Shown: positions 52,547 through 64,000 of the stretch, piece by piece
Layout: each line of letters starts with the position of its first letter
Position numbering within the stretch: position 1 is the stretch's first letter
NCBI RefSeq assembly: GCF_001687335.1
Contig: NZ_MAGO01000002.1
Location: forward strand, 124,001-188,000
Direction of reading: 5' to 3'
Length of the DNA stretch: 64,000 nucleotides
From: Dissulfuribacter thermophilus
Lineage (GTDB): Bacteria; Desulfobacterota; Dissulfuribacteria; Dissulfuribacterales; Dissulfuribacteraceae
Notes under the pieces: generated by a model
The model's database searches: none
What the model was told of the DNA's origin: nothing
Seen by the model: only the letters and a program-made list of their open reading frames with translations
Made by a program: the position numbers and the translations under genes

Positions 52547-55500
52547 TTAAAGAAACGATACACCTTTAAGGCCATATTTTTTACTGGGATATAGGCAGCA
52601 GGCCCTCTTAATACACTCCCTGTTCCTGTCATATTGAGTACATATGAGATCATGATCCGCCACGAGGTTTATATCAAGATATTTTTCAGAGAATCTCTTT
52701 GCCTCTTTAAGGGCAATATAGGATTCCCTTTGACAACACCTTGAGGCGACCCTTTCCCCTATCTTTAGGAGTACTTCTCCCACAATCTTCTGGACAATGG
52801 ACCTAGCTCGTGGACTCAACGGAGATGAGTCCAATAGGACTGAAAATGCCACTCCAACCCCTATAGCGGCCCCACAAGAGCCCATAAACCCACATGCTCC
52901 GCCTGGAACTTTAGAGCCCTTTTCAATGGCAGCCAAAATCTTTTCATCGCCAATATCGCCTCCGAGATTTTTATAGGTTGCGAGAATAATTCCCGGAACC
53001 ATGGCGTGATGTTCTGGACCATGCATTGGAAACCTTGGATTAGTCCTAATGCGCTTCATAAGACTTATCATGTCTGTTTCTGTCGTATTTATGGCGAGCT
53101 CTCTAATCACTTCAAGTGGTTCTTCTACATGACACGAGTCACAGCAAAAGTGTCCCTTAATACACCTTGTCTGGGTCTTGAAAACAGTCCCACAGATATC
53201 GCACTCTAGTTTGACAGGGGTATCCAAATAGACAATGGGAGCGCCACACAAAAGGCATCCGCTAGGTTGTTTTGGCCTGATTCGTTCCTTTGGCATTACC
53301 TGAGCCAGATTTGGACTAGAGCAACATGAACATGACCCGTCATCTAGCTGATTTAGGGCCTCGCCACTGTGAGGGTCAATCTTTAAAACCAGATCATCAG
53401 GAAGGTCTTCGGAAATATCATGGGAAATACCCTTTGTAGTTCCTTTTGTTAGTAAGGTACCATCCTTTAAAAAAAGGCCCTCGATAGGCCCTTTCAACAG
53501 GGCATTTATCTTCTTTTCTTTAGGCCGATCCTCTAAGGGCTTTTTGGCTTCGAAAGTAAGGCTGTAAAACCTGTGACCTGAGACCTCCCTATAGGGAAAT
53601 CGTTTTATTATCTTTGAATGCTCAAAGCCTAAATCCCTCAACATGGAAAAGAGATAGGACTGAACAAGGGCTCCTCCCAGACACTCGCCAACAAGGACCT
53701 TATTTCCCCGTATCCAAGGCATTGGTTCACACTCTGTCACCACGTCTGAGATAACTATTCTTCCTCCGGGCTTGAGACATCTAAAGGCCTCCTTTAAAAC
53801 TCTCCGCTTGTTCTTTGTAAGGTTTAAGACACAGTTGGATATAATGCAGTCCAAGGTCCCTGACTCTATGGGGATATCCTCCAAATGGGCCTTTATAAAA
53901 CTGATGTTGTCGTAACCAAGGCCTTTTACTATTGAGTGTTTCCCCTCATTAGCGACCTTTAACATTTCGTCAGTCATATCTAACCCTATCACCCTGCCTG
54001 ACGGACCAACCTTTTTTGCGGCAATTAGACACTCTACACCAGTACCGCATCCAAGGTCGCAAACGTATTCACCTGCCTGAAGCAGGGCATCCTCCACAGG
54101 ACTTCCGCATCCGTAAGACCTTTCAATATTCGCCTTGGGCACAAAATTTATCCCTTCTATCCCTGAAAGAGTAGGATTCTGGATCTTTTTGTCGGGTTCT
54201 TTCACTCGTCTTGAATAAAATTCCTGAACAAGCCCCCTCTGATCCCCTTGCCCCATAGAAAGTAGACAGTTTGAATGAAGAAAATTAACATCTTTAATTT
54301 CATGACATTCAAACGAAACATCACCCATCTTTAAGACAACTCCCATGTTATTCTCACGCTTTGGGAGTCCATTACACTCAAATTTGATAGCATATTGAAT
54401 CATTGCTTCATAAAATGGGGAGTTGGGATCAGGATTCAGTGAAAAGCCTTCATGATTTTTGAGGGGCTCAAGACAATGATCAATATCTCCTCCTCCTGTG
54501 AGGAAATGCCATGGATCCTCTCTCATCTCTTGGGAATCAATGAGGCTTAAGGACCTGATCTCCTCCAGTTTAGGGGAAGTTTTCCATATGTCCAAAAGGT
54601 CTTCGCCGCCTTTTAAAAGTTCTCCACACAGAAAACCAGGTCTGTCAACTGTTGCAGGGGTTGGCCAGACCTTTCCATCCGGTCCAACACACAGGGACTC
54701 CCATCCCGCACTTCCAAGATCATAACGAGTGCCAGGAGGAGAAAAGACTTGAGAGCGTATTGCATCGAGATTGTCCACCTCTATACCAAGGCAATCAGCC
54801 TCCTTGAGAAAAGAGGCGAAGTTTTCTATGAGCAATTCATCTTCAGAGACTGAGAGCCCAGTTCCTGCCCCCTGATCAAAATGCCAAAGGAGATGACACC
54901 CAGTAATCCCCAAATCCTTTAGTATATGAAGAGTCTCTTTTATATGATGGATAGTAATTTTATTTACGCTCATTGCGCAGGTAACAGAAAAGCCTCTTTC
55001 AATCAACGACTCTATTCCTGCCTTTGCCCTGTCAAAGCTCCCTTTCCCTCGAATAGAATCGTGAATATCTTTAGGCCCTTCTAAACTGACCTGAAAATGG
55101 ATCCTGTCTTTTTTCAAAAAAGAAAAATCTTTTAAAAGATCCTGGCAGAGAAGCCCATTTGTAAGTACTGCTATCTTTAAATTGGGGATATCCATGCAGT
55201 ACCTTAAGATGCTATCGAAATGGGGATAAAGGAAGGGTTCACCCCCTGTAAAACAGACTACATTAAGTCCGTGATCAATGGCCTTTTTTATGGCCTTTTT
55301 TACTGTATCCTCTTTTAATGTCCTATTTCTCGCCCTAAATTCAGAAAAAAGGCAATGTCTGCAGGAAAGATTGCACCTGTCCAAAAGGTGGAACCATAGC
55401 TCACGTAGGCCCTCTAGCCCCTTTCCTTTTCTACCTTCGTATGGAGAGACAGGTGGAATGGTAATCGACCCCAAAAAGTGCCGCGCCTCAAAAAAGGCCC

Positions 55501-55676
55501 GTTCTGGTCCAATGCTAAAATTGATAAGGCTCCTTACAATCTCTTTTTCACATAACTTTTGAATATCTTTTAAAATGGTATCTGCCCTTTCATTAACTAC
55601 AAACCAAAAAGGCACCTCAGGAAGTACGTAGGTCCTGTCCCCTACCCTCTTTAAAAAAAAGGTCTTGAATGGTCAT
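52547..55676 (-). CDS. Tri-domain protein: radical SAM + ArsM-like methyltransferase + DUF5714, with a T8 frameshift near the start
   Basis: The continuous frame from GTG 55615 gives 1022 residues. (1) A radical SAM domain has CX3CX2C (CNLSCRHC, Cys81/85/88), TGGEPFLYP and a SPASM/twitch-like tail. (2) A class I methyltransferase (~490-710) matches arsenite methyltransferases: SYGCGSP, CDLGCGTGVECLIAAKKVGP, LDMTDEML, SNCVLNL, GECLGGAL. (3) A Cys-rich linker (SCSCCSSPNLAQ) leads to DUF5714 (~790-1022), with two CxxC pairs, HHAMVPG and CGFMGSCGAAIGVG. Upstream of the GTG the frame still reads protein-like (KRVGDRTYVLPEV). An ATG at 55676 starts MTIQDLF in the next frame; removing one T from the T8 run (55653-55660) joins them. 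The chemistry may concern a thiol-bound metalloid or a radical-assisted methylation; that is inference. Confidence 0.82.
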
Positions 55677-55966: not shown

Positions 55967-56749
55967 TTAAATAAGTTTTTTATAATAAGGACATTTTTCC
56001 TTCCTACATCCATGGGGATGAAACGTATCGTAATTACAAACTATTCTTTGTTCAGGTCTAGTCAGCGAAATATTTAGTTCTTCTTTCAAGAATTTTAAGG
56101 CTATTTCCAACGATTTCCATGAATAAGCTTTACAACAGCTTGGGCCAGTAAGCTCAGCGACTGCCTGAGCAATTTTTGCTGTCACATTCATGGTTGTCTT
56201 TTGTTCTCTGTCAGTACCGCATTTTGCCCCTAATAATATGGAAAAACATCCACCAATTGCAGGGACAATTCCGCATACTCCAGTTAAACCACAATAGCCA
56301 CTAAAAGCCTGTTTACTAATTCTCGAAAATACTTCATCAAAAGTATCTTCTGCTATGGTTGTTTTTCCTGCATTCTTAATGGCTGCCAAAAGTGATCCTG
56401 CTACCATAAAGGCATGATGGCAGCCTAGCATTGATATATTTGGAGATTCCAGTATTGATTCAAATATGTGAAAAGGGTTGTCGGAAGTTGTGGCCAAACA
56501 TATTTCCTTTGTTTTTTCAATGGCTGGTCTATTGTGGCAATCTTCACAGATAGCATGACCTTTTGAACAAATTATATATCCTAAAAATTTTTTCCCACAA
56601 TAATAGCATATAAATCTCTTCTCTTTTAAATGATATTCAAGGGGTGCACCACATATCAAACAATCGTTTATTTCGGTTTTCGCCAGATCTGGCGAACTGT
56701 GGTTTGGCTGTCAGCAGCCAGTTGTAATGGGTTGTATCTTACCTATCAT
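55967..56749 (-). CDS. DUF5714 protein, probable selenoprotein (in-frame UGA = Sec13)
   Basis: 260 residues if the TGA at 56711-56713 is read as selenocysteine. The ATG at 56749 follows AGAGGT at good spacing. The N-terminal peptide has TTGCU (Gly-Cys-Sec), then SSPDLAK, which matches the SSPNLAQ linker of the tri-domain neighbour. The body is DUF5714: CLICGAPLEY, CYYCGKKF, GCHHAFMVAGSLLAAIK, GLTGVCGIVPAIGG and GPSCCKAYSWKS. Starting after the UGA needs a TTG at 56659 that cuts the conserved zinc ribbon (loses DC of DCLICG). A stem-loop sits at SECIS distance. Function unknown; a redox or metalloid-binding role is suggested by Cys and Sec. Confidence 0.75.
56679..56713 (-). promoter_or_regulatory. 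UGA codon and candidate bacterial SECIS stem-loop
   Basis: On the minus strand, UGA (56713-56711) is followed after 14 bases by UUCGCC-AGAUCU-GGCGAA (56696-56679), a perfect 6-bp stem with a six-base loop whose second base is G. The loop lies 20 bases after the UGA, within the range used for bacterial SECIS elements. A second small hairpin (UGGCUG/CAGCCA) spans the UGA itself. Confidence 0.65.
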
Positions 56750-56995
56750 AAGTACCTCTTTGAGATTTTTTTCTAAATTTCGCTATTGAAGTTATGTAAT
56801 ATACAGGTGCCGATGATAGCGTCTCCTGCCATGTTTAATCCTGTACAACTCCAACTCATCTCCCCCATAATAACTCCACACCTCATCCCACACAACTCTG
56901 TGCCTACAGTTATATTCCCCTCCACCAGTAGACCCAGATTATGCAATCTGACTCGATTGAGTTCTTTCTAGAACCACTCCCTTAATATCTAACGG

Positions 56996-61870: not shown

Positions 61871-64000
<2,130 letters not shown>

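Follow-up and report, generated by a model that had tools for sequence, protein, structure and literature searches.

A stand-alone DUF5714 protein of Dissulfuribacter thermophilus with a very probable Cys-selenocysteine pair, a single-domain relative of MbdU

How is a UGA codon read when it interrupts an otherwise open frame shortly after the start? The question is raised by a DUF5714 gene on the minus strand of a 64,000-nucleotide stretch of the Dissulfuribacter thermophilus genome (the window), at 55967 to 56749, where a standard gene call begins past the UGA, so that a Cys-Sec arm, probably the active part of the protein, is lost. The frame from the ATG at 56749 encodes MIGKIQPITTGC-U-QPNHSSPDLAK..., with U standing for the UGA of codon 13 (56711 to 56713) and Cys12 (TGC, 56714 to 56716) directly before it, and past the UGA it runs without a further stop to the TAA at 55967. 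A Shine-Dalgarno-like AGAGGT (56754 to 56759) lies 4 nt 5' of the ATG (AGAGGT-ACTT), and DUF5714 (PF18978) matches residues 81 to 256 with 178.5 bits against a gathering cut-off of 26.2. The ATG, the AGAGGT and the single TGA at codon 13 had been placed by an initial annotation of the same DNA, all with correct coordinates. From the single UGA in the frame, the DUF5714 score and homologues that share the frame, the product is delineated as a protein of 260 residues with an N-terminal Cys-Sec arm, zinc ribbons and DUF5714. We consider it very probable, from comparison of sequences, that the gene encodes a selenoprotein in which UGA is read as selenocysteine, and that this is a single-domain relative of MbdU.

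The simplest alternative is that the UGA is an ordinary stop, that the protein starts at the TTG at 56659, and that the codons upstream are a leader or chance. Gene callers indeed give a 230-residue open reading frame from this TTG, and DUF5714 lies entirely downstream of the UGA. However, the TTG lies inside the CLICG ribbon, so that a start there would cut off the first ribbon cysteine, and no Shine-Dalgarno-like sequence precedes it, in contrast to the ATG. With the UGA kept beside a cysteine codon in 14 loci and a covarying hairpin behind it, a stop with a TTG start was rejected as highly improbable.

The homologues were sought in 395 genomes of the phylum, 46 of the order and a plasmid collection, and they form a strongly supported clade (100/100). 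A Cys codon directly adjoins the UGA in 14 loci from 13 genomes. Twelve of these genomes come from the phylum of the window, and one, Acetoanaerobium noterae, is recorded as Bacillota, so that the feature is not limited to one phylum; the order is Cys-UGA in 13 loci and UGA-Cys in one (L025). Coding sequence is thus conserved on both sides of an in-frame UGA in two phyla. In most of these loci an ATG lies 9 to 18 codons upstream of the UGA; at one (L026) the frame, followed back from the UGA to the stop before it, has no standard start codon. The initial annotation would have given up its reading if homologues lacked conservation upstream of the CLICG ribbon; the UGA beside Cys proved to be conserved there. 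Sequencing error or a pseudogene was also considered and rejected, the feature being common to 13 genomes. The remaining clade members are two cut by contig ends (L009/L017 and L016) and one without UGA (L024), and across 12 sequences 18 Cys/Sec positions are invariant, of which two form the vicinal pair, seven are C30-C33-C48-C51 and C61 (with H65)-C68-C71, and the remaining nine are other cysteines. Viral contigs were also searched and yielded no relative of the selenoprotein.

Several members of the clade depart from the common form. In L025 (1477 to 2253) the pair is inverted (TG-U-C-HP), the hairpin lies one base closer and its loop is AGUA. One genome (G412) has a second DUF5714 copy (L088 / L092-L093, G412:C84) that keeps Cys-UGA and is broken across frames; no clear hairpin was found at L088, and this copy looks like a decaying duplicate. 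The member without UGA, from genome G004 (L105 1712 to 2716; L024), is fused to an N-terminal stretch without a Pfam match.

What would direct selenocysteine to this codon? A stem-loop 14 bases past the UGA had been noted at the outset and is present as described: UUCGCCA-GAUC-UGGCGAA, a 7-bp stem with a GAUC tetraloop (56696 to 56679, loop 56689 to 56686), which we regard as a SECIS-like hairpin on its fold, its covariation and its rarity. Among the 2474 TGA triplets of the window, counted on both strands and in all frames, two have a stem of at least 7 bp with a tetraloop at the same spacing and G in loop positions 1-2; one is the UGA of codon 13 and the other, at 62791, lies outside any open frame. 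Similarly, of the 6708 TGAs in stretches from 15 other loci, 5 are followed at this spacing by a stem of at least 5 bp with a GGUC tetraloop, and all five belong to the stand-alone DUF5714 selenoprotein family. The covariation check proposed initially gave a clear outcome: the hairpins of 12 homologues align without gaps, 98.3% of pairs over the five inner positions are standard, and each of the five inner pairs shows changes in both of its partners, in 25 cells, where shuffles give 7.9 (sd 2.1). Pairing falls to 28 to 50% when the partner column is slid by 1 to 3, a comparison biased somewhat in favour of the hairpin since its structure was derived from the same 12 sequences.

The loop is GGUC in eight homologue hairpins; the window copy has GAUC, and the loops of L022, L025 and L076 also deviate. 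In most loci the loop starts at a distance of 25 nt from the UGA, and in two (L020 and L023) at 22 nt. When codons were shuffled synonymously, the stem stood out at 7 of the 13 loci (p 0.004 to 0.03). Folding energy alone gave p 0.04 for the window copy and >0.05 in 10 of 13 loci; it separates the hairpin poorly from the shuffles, and the SECIS case is therefore one of position, stem and covariation. Compared to the SECIS of Escherichia coli fdhF, which was located in the annotated gene and its loop position counted by eye, eight homologues share the GGUC tetraloop on a stem, and the fdhF loop, at nucleotides 22 to 25 from the UGA, is placed as in L020 and L023 and one codon closer than in most homologues. 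Unlike fdhF, the window copy has GAUC as its loop, and a bulged U is not seen in its stem.

The genome also encodes the machinery, the lack of which had been named as a second ground for dropping the selenoprotein reading. All of selA, selB, selC and selD were found: a tRNA-Sec with anticodon UCA (73.5 bits) and matches to SelB (366.8 bits), SelA (578.8 bits) and SelD (381 bits). SelD (G000:C10:23416-24339, minus strand; locus L078) itself contains an in-frame UGA (KASGUAAKIGPGDL) at its usual Sec site, and thus serves as a positive control for UGA as Sec in this genome. SelB, guided by the hairpin past the UGA, would then bring Sec-tRNA-Sec to codon 13, and the resulting vicinal Cys12-Sec13 pair is a well-supported prediction from sequence. 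Every one of the 13 genomes in which UGA adjoins Cys has a tRNA-Sec of at least 69.7 bits. Among the clade members whose upstream sequence is known, L024 alone lacks the UGA, and it belongs to a genome, G004, in which tRNA-Sec was not found in an assembly only 91% complete; the best-scoring matches there are a tRNA-Ser and a tRNA-Trp (48.8 and 47.4 bits).

The same genome has a tRNA-Cys (GCA) of tRNA-Sec-like structure (G000:C11:21794-21882, minus strand) just before a second selB (G000:C11:19880-21757, minus strand; loci L002 and L045), whose product is 34% identical to the main SelB. This pair is consistent with the selC*/selB* pairs that PMC7609411 describes (after Mukai 2017). Could the UGA of codon 13 be read through as Cys by such a tRNA, or as Trp? 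The adjoining second selB and the opal anticodon of some selC* tRNAs (PMC7609411) speak for it. Yet the anticodon of this selC* tRNA is GCA, which reads UGC/UGU, and the UCA anticodon is on tRNA-Sec; decoding as Cys by the selC* tRNA was rejected for this reason. Since tRNA-Sec is also present in all Cys-UGA genomes and SelD has UGA at its usual Sec site, we give read-through as Cys or Trp very little credence, and the selenocysteine reading is kept.

The locus has a second DUF5714 protein. A paralogue of 1022 residues (52547 to 55615, minus strand) is, by its Pfam, NCBIfam and PDB matches, a fusion of radical SAM, ArsM-type methyltransferase and DUF5714; among its 25 best NCBIfam matches no cut-off is reached. 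It has no UGA and reads DGSCSCC-SSPNLAQ...GCLLCGAPIVY, so that the motifs compared in the initial annotation (SCSCC, SSPNLAQ and GCLLCGAPIVY) are all present. Such fusions share the zinc ribbon and DUF5714 body of the window protein and usually have Cys-Cys before the ribbon, but they are about 1000 residues long, lack UGA and form a separate, well-supported clade. Most tri-domain proteins, like the stand-alone L038 and L041, have Cys-Cys ahead of the ribbon, with a loose register of the arm. The selenoprotein claim of the initial annotation is hence borne out by 14 loci with UGA beside Cys in two phyla, the covarying hairpin, selA, selB, selC and selD, and Cys-Cys in most tri-domain paralogues.

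Is DUF5714 then a new selenoprotein family, as the initial annotation had supposed? The NCBIfam model NF045648 ("metal-binding double selenoprotein MbdU"), which has a CU motif, matches the window protein at 1.6e-95 over profile positions 30 to 268 of 468. Sec falls at profile position 9 in L019, L020 and L081, as judged from the alignment starts, so that the model already includes the Sec site, and MbdU appears in the review PMC13188914 as a family with a CU motif and two Sec residues, attributed there to Haft & Tolstoy 2025. With domain and Sec site covered by the model and the family listed in the review, the claim of novelty fails for the family. In the literature searched, to which Haft & Tolstoy 2025 did not belong, there was no mention of DUF5714.

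The window protein resembles MbdU in its homologous DUF5714 half, the N-terminal CU motif before the ribbon and, where the N-terminus aligns, Sec at profile position 9; it differs in having one Sec rather than two, 260 residues against 468 profile positions, and no C-terminal half with the second Sec, identified as DUF2284, the frame ending at the TAA at 55967 after DUF5714. It scores 320.8 bits against the curated cut-off of 600 bits over 468 positions, and the best of five other members (L081) scores 393; in the 395 phylum genomes all matches stayed below the cut-off. The single curated model requires the two halves together and overlooks the short form. DUF5714 is already on record as a selenoprotein family, and what seems to be new is the stand-alone, single-Sec architecture.

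What might the Cys-Sec pair do? An AlphaFold2 model from a shallow alignment has a mean pLDDT of 73.5, with residues 1 to 27 below 50, and the Cys-Sec arm is predicted to be disordered; searches of the PDB with Foldseek and by sequence gave nothing significant for the selenoprotein. Together with the cysteines of the zinc ribbons and those conserved in the helical DUF5714 body, the pair on its flexible N-terminal arm may capture or reduce a soft metal(loid), with arsenic as the most plausible candidate, and this would be passed to methylation or efflux. We infer this role from ArsR or efflux neighbours and the paralogue fused to ArsM, and put it at about an even chance. The methyltransferase domain of the paralogue aligns with the arsenite methyltransferase 5evj (PDB) and retains the motifs GCG, SNC and GEC, whose cysteines bind As(III) in ArsM. 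In G216, G383 and G269 the copy has an ArsR-type regulator nearby, as has that in G412 (read from the sequence); the copy in G156 lies beside genes for an RND pump and for cation efflux, and a likely RND operon, recognized by eye, precedes that in G408. Such neighbours occur at about half of the loci; apart from the paralogue, nothing near the window copy points to metals.

The main rival on function accepts the selenoprotein and takes it for a general thiol/selenol redox protein instead of a metal(loid) handler. In L019, L021 and L076 the vicinal Cys-Sec stands in a GCUG context, which resembles the C-terminus of mammalian thioredoxin reductase, and DUF5714 weakly matches C_GCAxxG_C_C, a "putative redox-active protein". 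The ArsR and efflux neighbours, the ArsM fusion of the paralogue and the joining of DUF5714 in MbdU to DUF2284, "predicted metal-binding", argue against it, and we regard general redox chemistry as a serious contender, though somewhat short of an even chance.

The 14 loci link a Cys-Sec site to domains of arsenic methylation and to regulators of the metal response, and the protein offers a concrete subject for the question of what selenium does for anaerobes in their metal(loid) chemistry. The fusions form a triangle: DUF5714-DUF2284 (MbdU), ArsM-DUF2284 (NF041536, by name) and ArsM-DUF5714 (window). The ArsM/DUF2284 and ArsM/AhpD selenoproteins (NF041536 and NF041537) are likewise tied to arsenite methylation, and NF041536 also to DUF2284, but they lack DUF5714 and match at the locus only via the ArsM domain of the paralogue. 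A more tentative proposal, which we hold to be rather doubtful, is that the stand-alone Cys-Sec DUF5714 proteins make up a class, so far undescribed, of metalloid carriers or reductases that give arsenic to ArsM-type methylation or efflux, with the radical SAM/ArsM/DUF5714 fusion as the Cys version of the pathway in a single chain. In two genomes a small protein (L094 3163 to 3513; L115 4574 to 4885) is encoded between an ArsR-type gene and the DUF5714 selenoprotein gene, and the one in L094 has a weak FeoC-like winged-helix match.
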